Source of the DNA: Pyrococcus kukulkanii
GTDB taxonomy: Archaea; Methanobacteriota_B; Thermococci; Thermococcales; Thermococcaceae
Assembly (NCBI RefSeq): GCF_001577775.1
Contig: NZ_CP010835.1
Location: 1,868,264 to 1,932,263, forward strand
Direction of reading: 5' to 3'
DNA: 64,000 bases
Shown here: piece after piece, positions 20,194-34,455 of the stretch
How the letters are laid out: the number at the start of each line of letters is the position of its first letter
Numbering within the stretch: position 1 is the stretch's first letter
Notes under the pieces: generated by a model
Seen by the model: only the letters and a program-made list of their open reading frames with translations
The model's database searches: none
What the model was told of the DNA's origin: nothing
Program-made: the position numbers and the translations under genes

Positions 20194-20607
20194 ATGGAGC
20201 GCCTTGAATACCAGGTTGAATTAGAATGGGATGGCAATGTTGGGAGTGAGGCTAAGGTTAGGGAGTTCTCGTTCAGGATTGACACGAAGACGGATGGTCA
20301 TAACTCTGGACCAAATCCCACAGAGTACCTGCTTGCCGCCATAGGTGGCTGTTTAACCGTGAACTGGGGCAGGCTTATAAAGAAAATGCGTCTGAAGGTC
20401 GAGAGCATGGAAATAACAGTCTATGGATGGAGGGACAGGAAAGAGCCTCAATTGAAGGAGATTACCTACAAGATCCGTATCGTGACGAACGAGCCCGAGA
20501 AAAAGATACTCCGTGTCAAGGAGCTCGCCGAGAAGTATGGGACGGTCTTCAACACAGTTGGGGCGGGGAAGATAAAGGGTGATGTGGAGATAGTCAGGCC
20601 TAGGTGA
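20194..20607 (+). CDS. OsmC family protein
   Basis: The 137-residue protein has the OsmC/Ohr fold signature GPNPTEYLLAAIGGCLT with Cys53. OsmC proteins reduce organic hydroperoxides with two cysteines, but the second cysteine (normally C-P-V near residue 115) is replaced by G-T-V here. Peroxidase activity is therefore doubtful, and a sulfur-carrier or ligand-binding role is possible. The start ATG has an A/G-rich ribosome site (AGAAGGGGG). It is divergent from fdhA, with which it shares a palindrome motif, and convergent with the ABC exporter, overlapping by 8 bases. Confidence 0.8.
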   Translation: MERLEYQVELEWDGNVGSEAKVREFSFRIDTKTDGHNSGPNPTEYLLAAIGGCLTVNWGRLIKKMRLKVESMEITVYGWRDRKEPQLKEITYKIRIVTNEPEKKILRVKELAEKYGTVFNTVGAGKIKGDVEIVRPR

Positions 20608-24213: not shown

Positions 24214-25053
24214 TCACGGGGAGGGGAAGGGCCTTCTCGCCATGTGTCTCCCCATTCCGCATAGGAAGGCCAGGAAGCCGCTCACAACTACCCCCACGCT
24301 GAGTATGTGGAGTGTCTCGGGCACGTTCGCCGTGAGTATCTTCGCCGTTACCTCAACGGTTGCAAGCGAGAGCAATGCCATTGTTGTATAGCGGACGTAG
24401 AGTGGTTTCACCCTGTGCATCAGGAGTGTACCCGTTACCCCACCGAGAAAGCCCGCAGTCGCCACTGTCAGGAGAGTTTCCGTGGCTATAGGTATCCTTG
24501 GGAGCAAGAGAGCGTACGTCAGGAGGGTAACGCCCGAAACTCCGAGTGCAGTTGCCGCAGTGTTCGCCGAGACCTTCTTCGGGTTTCTGAAGAGGTATGA
24601 GAAGGCTATGATTGCTATTGGCGATGCGTCCACACCTATGAGCCCCGCGGTGAAGCCCTGAATGGCTCCCAGTAAGTATGTCTTCCATCTATCTTTGCTC
24701 TCTGCTACTCCACCGGTAACCATGCGGTAGATAGCAAAGAGGAAGAACAATGCGAGGGCGACAAGTACGAGGATCCTTGGGGTGTGGACATTCACGTACG
24801 CCCCTAAAGGCACGAAGAGCGCCGCGGGAACGAATACCCTTGCAACATTTCTCCATTCTATGAGGCCCTTCTTCCAGTTCATGGCAGTTGCAACGGTCAG
24901 CTCCGCGGTGTTTTGGGTCAGCCCGAGTATCATGGCCGCGTGAACGCTCAGTCCTATAGCTATGTAGTTGGGTATGAGCACCCCTGCCGCTCCCATTCCA
25001 GCTATCGCGAATACACTCGCGAGGATGTAGGTGAGTACCACCATTCCCAACAT
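24214..25053 (-). CDS. TauE/SafE family anion/sulfite exporter
   Basis: The 279-residue protein has about eight helices in two repeats, with GMGAAGVLIPNYIAI and GLIGVDASPIAIIAF as the paired half motifs of TauE/SafE transporters, which move sulfite, sulfonates or similar anions. It is the first gene of the three-gene operon. A TATA-like CTTTATAAAG (25097-25106) and the inverted repeat TTTTGT-N6-ACAAAA (25078-25095) lie upstream. Confidence 0.8.
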   Translation of the reverse strand: MLGMVVLTYILASVFAIAGMGAAGVLIPNYIAIGLSVHAAMILGLTQNTAELTVATAMNWKKGLIEWRNVARVFVPAALFVPLGAYVNVHTPRILVLVALALFFLFAIYRMVTGGVAESKDRWKTYLLGAIQGFTAGLIGVDASPIAIIAFSYLFRNPKKVSANTAATALGVSGVTLLTYALLLPRIPIATETLLTVATAGFLGGVTGTLLMHRVKPLYVRYTTMALLSLATVEVTAKILTANVPETLHILSVGVVVSGFLAFLCGMGRHMARRPFPSP

Positions 25054-29466: not shown

Positions 29467-29874
29467 ATGAGGATAGCTGTTCCAGCCGTGGACGATAAAG
29501 GCTTAGAAAGCGAAGTGAGTAGACACTTTGGCAGGGCAAGGTACTTTGTATTTGTTGACGTTGAAAACAATGAAATTAAAGGTGCGGAGGTCGTTGAGGT
29601 TCCTTTCGAGGAGCATGGACCAGGGGATCTTCCAAGGTTCGTCAAGGAGCACGGAGGAGAAGTCGTCCTTGCTTATGGAATGGGGCATAAAGCTATTTCA
29701 TTCTTCAACGAGCTCGGCATAGAAGTCGTTACTGGGGCCTATGGAAGAATAAGAGATGTGGTTGAGGCCTTTATACACCAGGTTCTAGAGTTAGATCCTC
29801 ACTGGAAGGAGAAGATAGAGCGCGAAAAGGAAAGGGAGAGAGGTGAAAAGCACGAGCAGAGAGATGGTTTGTAA
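29467..29874 (+). CDS. NifX/NafY-type Fe-Mo cofactor-binding domain protein
   Basis: The 135-residue protein has the dinitrogenase cofactor-biosynthesis fold: MRIAVPAVDDKGLESEVSRH, FGRARYFV, and GDLPRFVKEHGGEVVLAYGM. In non-diazotrophs these small proteins are thought to bind or carry Fe-S or Mo/W clusters. The C-terminus is highly charged (His, Glu, Lys). GGGTGAT (29455-29461) is the ribosome site and GCTTATATG (about 29424-29432) a TATA. It lies just upstream of a TDT transporter and near Suf genes. Confidence 0.8.
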   Translation: MRIAVPAVDDKGLESEVSRHFGRARYFVFVDVENNEIKGAEVVEVPFEEHGPGDLPRFVKEHGGEVVLAYGMGHKAISFFNELGIEVVTGAYGRIRDVVEAFIHQVLELDPHWKEKIEREKERERGEKHEQRDGL

Positions 29875-29932
29875 CGAGGGGTTTAAAAAATCTTTAAAAT
29901 TCTTCATATGATGCAATCTTCTGGTGAAGTAA

Positions 29933-30937
29933 ATGGGGATAAGTATAAAGGACTTTGCTCCTAGCTGGTTTGCGAGCGTTATGGGGACGGGAGCCTTAGC
30001 TTTGACAAGTAAAGCGTACTCATCGAAGCTTCCAGCCTTGGCTGGATTTGCGAAATTTCTCGTCTACCTCAACACCCTCCTATTCTTCATCCTTCTAATT
30101 CCATGGCTTCTCAGATGGGTGAAGTACACGGAAAACGCCTTAGAAGATCTAAAACATCCGATGGTGAGTCACTTTTATGGAACGATAGCAGTGGCTATGC
30201 TCGTCCTCTCGGCGGATTATCTCTTTATACTTAAAAAAATCACCATTGCAAAGGCGTTCTGGATCCCTGGGACAGTTTTAACGATATTCTTTGCCCTACT
30301 AATACCCTATTTGATGTTTGTGGAAAGAGAAATAGATCTTAAGGTCGTTACTCCTGCATGGTTTATTCCCCCCGTGGGGCTTATCGTTATTCCCATGGGA
30401 GGTGCAGGCCTAATCTCAAGCTTCTCTGGGACTGCCCGGGAGATCGCCTATGTGGTTAATTACTTCGCCTGGGGGGCTGGTTTCTTCCTTTACTTGGGCC
30501 TGTTCGCGATAGTGTTTTTCCGCTTCATAAGGCATGAACCGATGCCCTGTGGTATGGCTCCAGCTGTATGGATAAACCTTGGACCAATAGGGGCTGGAAC
30601 TTCAACACTCTATGCACTCGTCAAAGCTAGTGAGTTCCTGAAAGTTAAAGAGCCTTTCTTGGCGTTTGGTTTAATATTCTGGGGCTTTGGCGTCTGGTGG
30701 CTGGCGATGGCTATCATGATGACCATCTACTACATCAGAAAACTCAACTTACCCTATAGCCTGGCTTGGTGGGCTTTCATCTTCCCACTCGGAGCCTACG
30801 TGGGGGCAACGCACAACGTTGGTACAGCCTTTGGTATAGGAATTATAGACAGCTTTGGCTTTGTCCTTTACTGGCTTCTACTGGCTATGTGGCTGATCAC
30901 GGGTGTAAAAACTGTAAAGCACGTGCTTCTCGAATGA
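29933..30937 (+). CDS. TDT family anion channel/transporter (TehA/SLAC1-like)
   Basis: The 334-residue protein shows about ten membrane helices and the family motif APSWFASVMGTGALAL at the N-terminus. TehA, malate permeases and the sulfite pump Ssu1 belong to this family, so the substrate may be an organic acid or sulfite. The sulfur-related neighbours make sulfite attractive, as inference only. GGTGAAG precedes the ATG. Confidence 0.8.
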   Translation: MGISIKDFAPSWFASVMGTGALALTSKAYSSKLPALAGFAKFLVYLNTLLFFILLIPWLLRWVKYTENALEDLKHPMVSHFYGTIAVAMLVLSADYLFILKKITIAKAFWIPGTVLTIFFALLIPYLMFVEREIDLKVVTPAWFIPPVGLIVIPMGGAGLISSFSGTAREIAYVVNYFAWGAGFFLYLGLFAIVFFRFIRHEPMPCGMAPAVWINLGPIGAGTSTLYALVKASEFLKVKEPFLAFGLIFWGFGVWWLAMAIMMTIYYIRKLNLPYSLAWWAFIFPLGAYVGATHNVGTAFGIGIIDSFGFVLYWLLLAMWLITGVKTVKHVLLE

Positions 30938-30963: not shown

Positions 30964-31914
30964 TCATTCTCCCAAGAGACCCTTTATAATTAGCTCAGCC
31001 GCTTCATCCTCTGTTAGACCCTTAGCCATGAGCTGAATGAGCTGGGCTTCGTTTATCCTTCCTATGGATGCCTCGTGCGTGAGCTCGGCCTTGTCGTTCT
31101 TTACCCTTAGGAGAGGAACAGTCTGAACGTCAGCATTACCTTTAACAATCTCGTGACACTCAACGTGGCCCTTTGCGTAGTCACCGAGGCCGTAGGCCTC
31201 GTTTATAACGCTAGCCCTTGCCCTGTCAAAGGCTATAACCGTACTTCTTAGGTTTGCCCTGGAGTGTGCCCCCTCCAGATAGGCGACTTCCTTTATCTCA
31301 ACTGAATCATCTTTAACTGCCTTCACCTTTGACTCAAGCTCAAGAACAGCCCTCTCATCGAGTCTCGCGATCATCTCAAGCTTCAGCTTCTTTGCCCTGT
31401 GCTTCGTCAGAGAGAACCTTCCCGTATAGCGGGCACCTCTGCCCACATCCACCTCTGTCTTGCCGATCATCCTTACACCCTCGCCGTGCACGTGTTCATC
31501 GTCGTAGAGCACGCTTGAACCTTCTCCAATTTTTATCCTTGTCACCGCTTCGTGGGTGAAGTTCTTTGCGTAGGGAAAGATGCAATGGGATATGAATTTA
31601 ACCTTCGAGTTTTTGCCGACGTTTATGTCAAAGACAACCCTCTGGTACCCCTCGCTTTCCAAATAACCAGTGCAAAGGTGAACGGGAAAGGGAAGCTCAA
31701 CGTTGTCCGCGATTTTAACTTCAGCTTTAACTCCGTTCTTAATCTCCTTTCCCTTTATCTCAACCCCTGGAACATTGTTGAGCCCGATGATTTTGTCTCC
31801 ACTGATGATTATCGTTGCTATTCTGCCCTCGAAAAGGGAGGTGTCAAGACCTTCTCGCTGATAGGCCTCAACTAACGCCTCGTATTCCCTAGTGAGATCA
31901 ATCTTTATCGTCAT
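30964..31914 (-). CDS. sufB: SufB/SufD-like Fe-S cluster scaffold protein
   Basis: The 316-residue beta-helix protein matches the short archaeal SufB/D type. YTGRFSLTKHRAKKLKLE, EAYGLGDYAKGHVECHEIV and LTHEASIGRINEAQLIQLMA are diagnostic, and HEASIGRI is the region around the conserved His/Asp of SufD/B. With SufC it forms the scaffold for Fe-S cluster assembly. ATG 31914 starts two bases after the sufC stop; a longer frame to 31938 is unsupported. There is no separate cysteine desulfurase here, so sulfur may come directly from sulfide. Confidence 0.88.
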   Translation of the reverse strand: MTIKIDLTREYEALVEAYQREGLDTSLFEGRIATIIISGDKIIGLNNVPGVEIKGKEIKNGVKAEVKIADNVELPFPVHLCTGYLESEGYQRVVFDINVGKNSKVKFISHCIFPYAKNFTHEAVTRIKIGEGSSVLYDDEHVHGEGVRMIGKTEVDVGRGARYTGRFSLTKHRAKKLKLEMIARLDERAVLELESKVKAVKDDSVEIKEVAYLEGAHSRANLRSTVIAFDRARASVINEAYGLGDYAKGHVECHEIVKGNADVQTVPLLRVKNDKAELTHEASIGRINEAQLIQLMAKGLTEDEAAELIIKGLLGE

Positions 31915-31916
31915 CC

Positions 31917-32630
31917 TCAGCCCTCCGGGAAGGAGCATCTTCTACAGGTCTTCCGATAGTAGTCAACGACCTCATGTGAAAAGCCTTTTTTCACTAATCT
32001 ACCTGCGCAGATGAAGTATGAGAAGTCTGTTTTGGCTGCTATCTCCTCGTGGTGGGTGATAAGTATCACGGTGGTACCGTACTTCTGGAAATAGTTTAGG
32101 ATTCTCTCTATGAGTTCTTTGGCCGTTATGTCGAGGCCCGAGTCAGGTTCATCGAGAATTGCGTACCTTGGTTTAAGGAGAAGAAGTGATGCAAGCTCTA
32201 CCCTTTTCCTTTCACCACCGCTCAAACTTTTGTCCACAAAACGATGAGCATAGAGCTCATAGGACAGGCCAACAAGCTCGAGGACTTCTTGTATTTCATC
32301 TTCCTTAATTTTGAGCTTCCCACCAAGGGTGAGGTAGTCCTTCACGGTTATGCCCTCATACCGGGCCGGCTCCTGCCAGGCCATGCTTATCCCAAGTTTT
32401 GCCCTCTCAGTAATGCTCAACCCGGTTATATCCTTACCATCAAGGATAATCTGACCAGATGTGGGCTTTAGCTCTCCCATCAAAATGCGGGCTATTGTCG
32501 ATTTTCCCGCGCCGTTCGGCCCAAGTATTGAGTAGCTTATTCCATCTCTGAAGGTCATGTTTATTGAGTGAAGGATTTTCCTGCAATTTTGTAAGTACTC
32601 AACGTTCCTCAAGCAGAGCATTCTCATCAT
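31917..32630 (-). CDS. sufC: SufC ABC-type ATPase
   Basis: The 237-residue soluble ATPase has Walker A GPNGAGKST, signature LSGGERKR and Walker B YAILDEPDSGLD. It drives the SufB scaffold. Three start codons lie close together (32630, 32627, 32621); no strong ribosome site separates them. A Cys-rich tail (KTCRRCSFPEG) is unusual for SufC. An exact SurR-type motif lies about 45 bases upstream. Confidence 0.88.
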   Translation of the reverse strand: MMRMLCLRNVEYLQNCRKILHSINMTFRDGISYSILGPNGAGKSTIARILMGELKPTSGQIILDGKDITGLSITERAKLGISMAWQEPARYEGITVKDYLTLGGKLKIKEDEIQEVLELVGLSYELYAHRFVDKSLSGGERKRVELASLLLLKPRYAILDEPDSGLDITAKELIERILNYFQKYGTTVILITHHEEIAAKTDFSYFICAGRLVKKGFSHEVVDYYRKTCRRCSFPEG

Positions 32631-32674
32631 GAGAATTTCATTTGAAATTAACTTAAGATTTTCTAATAAGTTTC

Positions 32675-32691
32675 GTTCGGAACTATTAGTT
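32675..32691. promoter_or_regulatory. Extended SurR-type site
   Basis: GTTCGGAACTATTAGTT fits the published extended consensus for the Thermococcales sulfur-response regulator SurR, GTTn3AACn5GTT, at all nine fixed positions. It lies between sufC (minus) and a ferredoxin gene (plus), upstream of the AT-rich promoter elements of both. From known SurR behaviour, an upstream site suggests activation when the redox-active regulator is reduced. Confidence 0.65.
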
Positions 32692-32756
32692 GAAAATTAT
32701 AACATATGAAAAACATTTTAAATTAAGATGACAAACTCATCATGGAGGATATGAAA

Positions 32757-33173
32757 ATGTCCGGCGATGAAGCTCCTATCATTGGAAAGGATGCACTTGG
32801 GAGGCCAGTTAAAGATTTAAGCGTTATCCCATGGTGGGGAGTTGATCGGAAGGATATAGAGTGGTACCCGAAGATAAACTACGACAGATGTGCGGGATGC
32901 GGAATCTGCTTCATAACCTGTGGAAGGCGCGTCTTTGACTGGGACAAGGAGAAGGGGAAACCAGTTGTTGCGAGGCCCTATAACTGTATGGTAGGTTGTT
33001 CAACGTGCGCAATGCTCTGCCCCTGCGACGCGATAGAATTTCCGCCGAAGGAGTACATCAAAAAGCTCGTCGTTGAGAACAACATAGTAAGAAAAGCCTT
33101 TGAGATAACGAAGCCCTTAAGCAAGAAAAACGAAAAGAAACCTGAGGGAACCGAGAGCAAGTTCAACCCATAA
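32757..33173 (+). CDS. Two-cluster 4Fe-4S ferredoxin-like protein
   Basis: The 138-residue protein has two cysteine motifs: CAGCGICFITC and CMVGCSTCAMLCPC. These would bind two 4Fe-4S clusters, the first in standard CxxCxxCxxxC form. It probably carries electrons or supports cluster assembly. GGAGGAT (32745-32751) favours ATG 32757 over the ATG codons at 32742 and 32751. It is divergent from sufC across the SurR-type site and convergent with the TauE gene, overlapping by 11 bases. Confidence 0.85.
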   Translation: MSGDEAPIIGKDALGRPVKDLSVIPWWGVDRKDIEWYPKINYDRCAGCGICFITCGRRVFDWDKEKGKPVVARPYNCMVGCSTCAMLCPCDAIEFPPKEYIKKLVVENNIVRKAFEITKPLSKKNEKKPEGTESKFNP

Positions 33174-33900
33174 CCATGAGGAGCGTCTTAAGGGCTATAA
33201 GGTATATTATGACACCTATCACCTTTTTTACATGTTCAGAACTCATCTTGAAGTGCATTAGGTGGGTCCCTAGCCAGCCTCCTGCTATAGCGGGAATCGA
33301 AACCCATAGGAGCAGTTTCCAGTTTAGAGTTCCCATCCCTAAATAGGTTACAAATCCACTAAGAGATGAGAAGAAAACAACCAATGCTGTAGTTGCAGCA
33401 ACTTTTTTGGGTTCATAACCGAGCATTATAAGGGCGGGGCTAATTATTCCGCCCCCACCGACGCCAAGGAGACCGCCGAGGAAACCAGCTATTCCCCCAA
33501 TTAGTGAGCCCTCAATGACGTGATTTTCATGGCTTTCCCTTTTCTTAGGTTTAAAGAAAATCATCATCGTGCCTGAGTAAAGCAAAAATGCAACAAATAC
33601 CCAGAGGACATATACCTTAGGAATAAATTTACTTGCATAAGCTCCGATCGGGGCCATGGAGGTTGCGAGGATTAATATCGGGAGCCCAAAACGGTGGTCG
33701 AGCTTTCCATGCTTTATATTTTTGAGAGTCGCTGAAAGCATTGAGAGGGTGTTTATGAAGAGACCAGCAGGCTTGGCCGTCATAAGTGGGACTCCAAGCC
33801 AGCCCATTATTGGAACTATGGCGATGGCAGAACCTACGCCACCTATTGAGAAGATGACACTTAAGATAAAAGCTATAAGGACCATCTCTAAATAAGTCAT
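33163..33900 (-). CDS. TauE/SafE family anion/sulfite exporter
   Basis: The 245-residue protein has about eight helices with the paired glycine motifs FSIGGVGSAIAIVP and LGGLLGVGGGGIISPA of TauE/SafE transporters. It is a more canonical member than the one at 24214. AGGTGAGCC precedes ATG 33900, and TTTATAAAGG (33944-33953) is the TATA. A sulfur-anion substrate is suggested by the neighbouring suf genes. Confidence 0.82.
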   Translation of the reverse strand: MTYLEMVLIAFILSVIFSIGGVGSAIAIVPIMGWLGVPLMTAKPAGLFINTLSMLSATLKNIKHGKLDHRFGLPILILATSMAPIGAYASKFIPKVYVLWVFVAFLLYSGTMMIFFKPKKRESHENHVIEGSLIGGIAGFLGGLLGVGGGGIISPALIMLGYEPKKVAATTALVVFFSSLSGFVTYLGMGTLNWKLLLWVSIPAIAGGWLGTHLMHFKMSSEHVKKVIGVIIYLIALKTLLMVMG

Positions 33901-33993
33901 TAGGCTCACCTTATTTTATTTTACTGGCCGAATAAACTAGTTAGACCTTTATAAACTTACTTATTTGTGTTAAAGGGTAAAGAAGATAAAAAA

Positions 33994-34455
33994 TCATTCA
34001 TTTGTAAGACATTCACTTTCTTCCTCGACACGAATTATCAGCTCAAGAACGCATTCAAGTTTCTTTAGATCATTTAAAATAGTATTCAGCTTTGACTTCA
34101 TGTTTTCATCATACTTTCTCATCATAGATTTTACGATTTCTTCTAAAGGGCGGATTTCCCGCTCTAGCATCTCCTTAGGTTGGTGAAGGAACTTTTCAAA
34201 AAAAGCAGGACTTGCTGTGAAATATTTAATTCTGCCTCTTTTGCGGCATGTTACAAGATAGTCCCTGGATAATCTGGTTAGCGATATTGAAACTGATGAG
34301 CGACTTAAACCAGTTTTTTCAACAAGTTCAGTTATTGTCATAGGTGTACTTGAAAGTAACAAAGTTGCATATACCTTTCCCTCGGTTGAAGTATATCCCC
34401 AACGCACCATAATCCTTTCCACGATTTCTATGAACTTTCTTTCTTCGATATCCAT
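33994..34455 (-). CDS. GbsR/MarR-type transcriptional regulator
   Basis: The 153-residue protein has an N-terminal winged helix (WGYTSTEGKVYATLLLS, ITELVEKTGLSRSSVSISLT) and a C-terminal coiled helix, as in GbsR/TrmB-like regulators. It contains two Cys near the end (Cys about 133 and 150) and one in the wing. It lies upstream of the TauE gene on the same strand and may regulate it or the divergent genes at 34925/35091. Confidence 0.78.
   Translation of the reverse strand: MDIEERKFIEIVERIMVRWGYTSTEGKVYATLLLSSTPMTITELVEKTGLSRSSVSISLTRLSRDYLVTCRKRGRIKYFTASPAFFEKFLHQPKEMLEREIRPLEEIVKSMMRKYDENMKSKLNTILNDLKKLECVLELIIRVEEESECLTNE

Follow-up and report, generated by a model that had tools for sequence, protein, structure and literature searches.

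A conserved SurR-type site between the genes for an Fd-3 ferredoxin and an auxiliary SMS scaffold in Pyrococcus kukulkanii: a proposed addition to the SurR regulon

Introduction

The closest described control system is the SurR regulon of the Thermococcales (PF0095; sites GTTn3AAC, the short form, and GTTn3AACn5GTT, the long form). SurR positioned upstream of the BRE/TATA element activates mbh, whereas overlap with BRE/TATA represses mbs, and sulfur oxidises the CxxC motif of SurR, which is then released from DNA (PMC12401011, excerpt). Ferredoxin Fd-3 (TK2012) of T. kodakarensis, a protein of 15.6 kDa with a pI of 8.4 and nine cysteines, has been tied to the membrane-bound hydrogenase; it was needed without sulfur, could be deleted only when sulfur was present, and was undetected in the presence of sulfur (PMC6401487, excerpt). 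TK2012 RNA was about sixfold lower after sulfur addition, and indirect control by an antisense RNA was proposed (PMC4247193, excerpt); in an interactome, Fd3 was found in sulfur-grown cells too (PMC12016516, excerpt).

Among the Fe-S scaffolds, the SMS system of Methanocaldococcus jannaschii assembles clusters from sulfide, and residues C218, C239 and C242 are the ligands of its SmsC [4Fe-4S] cluster (PMC12192291, excerpt). Archaeal SmsB proteins fall into two clades, one of methanogens and some Thermococcales and the other containing Tk-SmsB (PMC12442378, excerpt). Excerpts of PMC4463584, PMC6981617, PMC3407056 and PMC10746257 held no expression data for smsCB of the MJ0034/MJ0035 type. Other Suf proteins rise with sulfur in Palaeococcus and T. 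onnurineus according to excerpts that made no tie to the MJ-type pair, and from which TON_0849-0850 could not be tied to it. Neither Fd-3 nor a second SMS scaffold was found in the open-licence literature as a direct SurR target with its site named.

Here, a stretch of 64,000 nucleotides from Pyrococcus kukulkanii (the window) was analysed around a SurR-type site that lies between genes of these two kinds.

Results

The genes on either side of the site

The ferredoxin gene (32757..33173, + strand; ATG at 32757, ribosome-binding GGAGG at 32744-32748) encodes 138 aa with nine cysteines, 15,632 Da and a pI of 8.7, and is 79% identical over its full length to the ferredoxin at locus L010 (138 aa, 15,611 Da, pI 8.36, nine cysteines), which was equated with TK2012 from matching protein properties. 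What a sequence-only reading had called a ferredoxin can thereby be specified as an Fd-3 ortholog, and among 94 genomes of the family 35 have a full-length relative. Since Fd-3 is an electron carrier of the H2 mode, the best-supported effect of the site is on hydrogen metabolism.

Outside the Thermococcales, Fd-3-like ferredoxins adjoin sulfur-handling genes (L051 4819-6402; L055 5383-6372), the neighbours being a TDT/SLAC1 protein, DsrE, a YeeE-type transporter and a TusA-ArsR protein in Marinitoga and an OsmC protein in Methanocaldococcus. These neighbourhoods suggest a mobile sulfur-related module.

On the other side lie smsC (31917..32630, − strand; start at 32630 or, likelier from relatives, at 32621) and smsB (30964..31938, − strand; 324 aa), which overlap and form a two-gene smsCB without sufD; smsB is followed by a convergent TDT gene. 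The name sufC given to the first gene did not stand: it scored 152.3 against the SufC model TIGR01978 (cut-off 212.8), and the sufB-like gene scored 82.3 against the NCBIfam SmsB model NF052511 (cut-off 650). The best solved relatives were MJ0035 (E 9.4e-66) for smsC and MJ0034 (E 1.8e-55) for smsB, the two subunits of the M. jannaschii SMS. C208, C229 and C232 of the window SmsC align with the three cluster ligands of the M. jannaschii protein, and C261, H288 and E289 of SmsB lie in stretches that align with MJ0034 and match the ligand residues of Tk-SmsB (PMC12442378, excerpt). The supposed SufC-SufB pair is a methanogen-type SMS (MJ0035/MJ0034 type) and an extra scaffold. A second pair, of the TK0730/0731 type, lies outside the window (L091), some 36 kb away from the site, and the SmsC of that pair contains no cysteine. 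Within 220 bp upstream of this second pair no long or short site was found. The sequence-only reading had placed Fe-S cluster assembly as a whole under elemental-sulfur control; this was too broad, as the site adjoins the MJ0034/MJ0035-type SMS only.

Sequence and frequency of the SurR-type site

The element GTTCGGAACTATTAGTT (32675..32691, + strand) lies in the intergenic DNA between the SufC-like gene (−) and the ferredoxin gene (+) and matches all nine defined bases of GTTn3AACn5GTT, exactly as had been read. The long motif was found twice in the window against 0.38 expected, and at least two copies arose in 5 of 100 shuffles of the window, so that the bare match is modestly unlikely and, alone, weak evidence. 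The short motif GTTn3AAC occurred 18 times against 13.4 expected, a number reached in 16 of 100 shuffles, and was not clearly enriched.

Genome-wide (1,977,126 bases), the long motif was found 30 times and the same pattern read backwards (mirror) 16 times. By a mechanical placement rule with an ORF cut-off of 100 aa, 20 of the 30 long sites (18/28 outside the window, 2/2 inside) were not wholly within an ORF, against 1 of the 16 mirror sites. A SurR ortholog is encoded at L093:2074-2799 (393 bits to the PDB entry of PF0095; CxxC present as CTEC); its gene stands next to one for a Pdo-like protein, and the intergenic DNA common to both contains a long site. Other long sites stand beside genes for HypF, HypA, the SH-II beta subunit, Nfn-like flavoproteins, a hydrogenase large subunit of the FrhA kind and an Mrp-E subunit, and because these neighbours look like the known SurR regulon the long motif is meaningful in this genome. 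At L100 ~1994-2016 (G000:C1:948894-948916), two long sites overlap on opposite strands as GTTn3AACn5GTTn3AAC, a fully symmetric form of the operator, and this double site precedes a gene of 230 aa.

Conservation in the family

Across the family, 53 genomes contributed 54 upstream regions (G007 was counted twice, its two genes lying apart), namely 24 with Fd-3 and SmsC divergent, 11 with Fd-3 but no adjacent SmsC and 19 with SmsC but no adjacent Fd-3. An exact long site was present in 44 of the 54 (21/24, 8/11 and 15/19, respectively) and absent in 10, counts that are inflated by the relatedness of the genomes; in the same regions the mirror pattern was found in none and four altered spacings in 0, 0, 0 and 1. 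Shuffles of the first 49 regions that preserve base composition only gave a long-site rate of 0.15%. Among the 41 of these 49 regions that contain the site, 32 combinations of spacers were seen with GTT/AAC/GTT unchanged; the spacers drift around defined bases that stay fixed. It is this conservation at the same place in relatives that makes the GTTCGGAACTATTAGTT site convincing, and the site is more than chance, though not in the form stressed earlier. A functionless chance match, in favour of which stand the shuffles of the window and the rarity of the forward form among relatives, has a probability close to negligible in view of the 44 regions against 0 to 1 for the control patterns and of the unequal placement of long and mirror sites outside ORFs.

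Since the site is kept with either gene alone, it probably serves both Fd-3 and the SMS pair, which upholds the earlier statement that it is placed to affect both divergent units. The site was absent from two sets of control promoters. TK0731-type smsC promoters carried a long or short site within 140 bp in 0 of 30 relatives (the best 30 of 87 matching genomes). Fd-3-like genes of other lineages (mostly Thermotogales, Methanocaldococcus, Desulfurococcales, Caldiserica and others, with L050 labelled Thermococcus) had a site in 0 of 22 upstream regions. In these scans L052, the upstream region of which was too short, and L072 were left out, and the start positions of L156 and L066-L071 are uncertain.

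The sequence-only reading had offered conservation of the site, in particular in other Pyrococcus species, as a check on the forward form. The site is indeed kept, predominantly on the other strand: 40 of the 54 regions carry the exact reverse form and four, the window included, the exact forward form. Within the genus, the reverse site lies between the two genes in G009 and G010, and G007 has it at Fd-3, with none at its separate smsC, while G006 is one base off. The arrangement, which had been referred to this genus, is neither general in it nor confined to it: a full-length Fd-3 is present in 4 of its 9 genomes and the SMS pair in 5 of 9, yet an exact site occurs in 5 of the 6 genera of the family; the sixth (G093) has Fd-3 without the site.

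The window itself contains a reverse-strand long site with one mismatch, ATTTTCAACTAATAGTT (32681..32697, − strand), and the core AACn5GTT (32681..32691), common to both orientations, was found in 44 of 49 regions; the five regions without the core were excluded from the aligned columns. In the 44 core-aligned rows the right arm was AAC in 37, AAT in 6 and another triplet in 1. The left arm GTT occurred in four rows (the window, G014, G034 and G045), all of which lack AAC on the right; in G045 the forward site is differently spaced from the start and could be an independent one. Three AAT rows (G051, G030 and G033) have neither exact form and are one base away. In the core-aligned rows the forward form was thus found only where the reverse arm is broken (P by simple counting 0.0016 without and 0.00026 with G045, values that ignore relatedness and serve as a guide only). 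The forward site is thus the less common and probably a derived form of an older opposite-strand site. As an example of a transcription-factor site switching strand around a persistent core, the family is a clear one.

At L079 (2944-4025), where Fd-3 is absent, another gene, encoding a Cys-rich protein of 148 aa (LPSCHKEAENLDIIFTCSGA...), stands opposite smsC, and the same SurR-type site lies between the two; genes for a 132-aa protein and a 66-aa ferredoxin follow it.

Promoter layout

Two elements, TGAAAAACATTTTAAAT before the Fd-3 gene (32707..32723, + strand; strongly conserved columns) and GAAAATCTTAAGT before smsC (32651..32663, − strand; GAAAAnTTTAAAT in relatives), are predicted BRE/TATA elements by their resemblance to the consensus. 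The forward site lies 15 bp from the predicted Fd-3 BRE and 11 bp from the predicted smsC BRE, and for the reverse form the distances are 9 bp and 17 bp, so the SurR-type site is upstream of both predicted elements and overlaps neither. By the upstream-site rule (PMC12401011, excerpt), both units are predicted to be activated without sulfur; for Fd-3 this matches its known expression and for smsCB it is a prediction.

The opposite direction, in which SurR would repress one or both units until released by sulfur, with SMS made when sulfide is abundant, would suit the use of sulfide by the M. jannaschii SMS (PMC12192291, excerpt) and the increase of other Suf proteins with sulfur in T. onnurineus (excerpt). 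It appears improbable, as neither predicted BRE/TATA is overlapped, upstream sites activate (PMC12401011, excerpt) and Fd-3 RNA drops with sulfur (PMC4247193, excerpt).

Between the SurR core and the smsC BRE, at 32659-32683 of the window, most relatives have a partial palindrome, TTCTGGACA...GTCCAGAAC, which is degraded in the window and is possibly the operator of another regulator. As a second operator, the half-palindrome TTCTGG...CCAGAAC was scanned for in the genome with up to two mismatches; it gave 60 matches against 40 for the reversed pattern and none in the intergenic region of the window, so no regulon could be drawn. A candidate element GGACA..., common to the two smsC promoters, was inspected by eye.

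The site might alternatively be an operator of the Fd-3 promoter only, with smsCB under some other control; the half-palindrome TTCTGGACA...GTCCAGAAC, which touches the smsC BRE, would be a possible element for this. Expression evidence exists for Fd-3 alone, the half-palindrome is kept beside the smsC BRE in many relatives, and the reverse form is nearest the Fd-3 BRE in relatives, as is the imperfect reverse site of the window (9 bp, against 17 bp to the smsC BRE). This account is nevertheless unlikely, given that the site is kept in 15 of 19 smsC regions without adjacent Fd-3, G055 and G050 included, and that the half-palindrome is degraded in the window.

A further route to the known expression of Fd-3 is indirect, through an antisense RNA under SurR regulation, a proposal made for TK2012. 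An antisense transcript whose TATA box has a SurR site was reported (PMC4247193, excerpt), and a short site lies 7 bases past the Fd-3 stop of L010. A short site at that position was found only in L010 and L011, however, and one anywhere near the stop in 4 of 30 loci, while the upstream site is much more widespread and L010 has that one as well. Antisense control as the explanation is very improbable; it is simpler to assume direct control, to which the antisense RNA would be added locally. Direct control by SurR would explain the known loss of Fd-3 with sulfur, hitherto ascribed to antisense RNA.

The TDT gene and the wider neighbourhood

A second exact long SurR-type site (29867..29883, + strand) lies 49 bases before a gene for a TDT/SLAC1 family transporter (29933..30937, + strand) that is convergent with smsB. 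This site overlaps the end of a NifX-like gene and abuts the predicted BRE of the TDT gene, a position compatible with activation or repression. Homologous upstream regions had the exact long site in 16 of 30 cases (the best 30 of 63 matching genomes), mostly those closest to the window. Because the TDT gene ends against smsB, all three transcription units of the cluster have a SurR-type site.

Elsewhere in the window are genes for OsmC, two TauE/SafE exporters and a TrmB/MarR-like regulator (20194-20604, 24214-25053, 33163-33909 and 33994-34455), which make up a sulfur-related neighbourhood.

Discussion

The earlier interpretation of the site as a SurR-type operator for both units is partly supported. 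From a position upstream of both promoters, reduced SurR probably switches on Fd-3 and, with it, the auxiliary SMS in the absence of sulfur. In this model two divergent promoters would share a SurR operator. When elemental sulfur is lacking, SurR whose CxxC is reduced would bind just upstream of both BRE/TATA elements and activate the Fd-3 gene, the product of which would pass electrons to the membrane-bound, H2-evolving hydrogenase, and smsCB, an operon that would provide an auxiliary, sulfide-fed [4Fe-4S] scaffold; with sulfur, SurR would be oxidised and leave the DNA, and both units would fall. In the lineage of the window the reverse arm would have decayed from AAC to AAT, and a forward arm GTT would complete the same AACn5GTT core.

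The sequence, its conservation, the specificity of the motif and the identities of the genes are observed here, and the action of SurR and the fall of Fd-3 RNA are taken from the cited papers; SurR binding at the GTTCGGAACTATTAGTT site, the direction of control and the co-regulation of smsCB we infer from these. A point against the mechanism is that the window itself is without the exact conserved (reverse) form; the 10 of 54 regions that lack any exact site, the finding of Fd3 in sulfur-grown cells (PMC12016516, excerpt) and the rise of other Suf proteins with sulfur in Palaeococcus and T. onnurineus also speak against it. A fall of smsCB with sulfur is also not an obvious need, because the M. 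jannaschii SMS uses sulfide, which is expected to be plentiful with sulfur; one guess is that the SMS provides hydrogenases and ferredoxin with clusters at times of sulfide scarcity.

More tentatively, and at somewhat less than even probability, a wider picture can be drawn in which SurR, through one operator, would co-activate a hydrogenase-dedicated Fd-3 and a second, methanogen-type SMS that meets the Fe-S demand of the H2 mode, the housekeeping scaffold staying outside the regulon; together with the TDT site this would form a SurR-controlled island, the operator of which has changed strand in several lineages around a fixed core. Some Thermococcales are thus predicted to operate two scaffolds of the SMS type, one of which is linked to the H2 mode, and why they have two becomes a testable question.

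Compared with the known SurR regulon, the locus has the same exact long motif, a SurR ortholog with CxxC is likewise present, and the site is upstream of BRE/TATA as in activated targets such as mbh (PMC12401011, excerpt). The 65 bp from the site to the Fd-3 start are close to the distances of long sites in T. piezophilus (SHII 69, Nfn I 72; PMC8595942). Unlike in that regulon, the putative targets here are Fd-3 and a second SMS scaffold, and the operator changed strand between lineages; judged from sequence, the Fd-3/smsCB site may be a newly proposed addition to it. In comparison with T. kodakarensis Fd-3, the window gene faces smsCB, whereas L010 has no smsCB pair. SmsC2B2 of M. jannaschii provides the nearest solved relatives of both subunits and its three SmsC cluster ligands are kept, but here the system is a second one beside a TK0730/0731-type SmsCB and adjoins a SurR-type site. 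SmsB-SmsC of T. kodakarensis (TK0730/TK0731) is likewise a SufBC-like two-part scaffold (PMC12442378, excerpt); SmsB of that type has about 450 aa against 324 here, with 28-30% identity over the shared part, and the ortholog of that type in the same genome, unlike the MJ-type pair, has neither an SmsC cysteine nor a SurR-type site.
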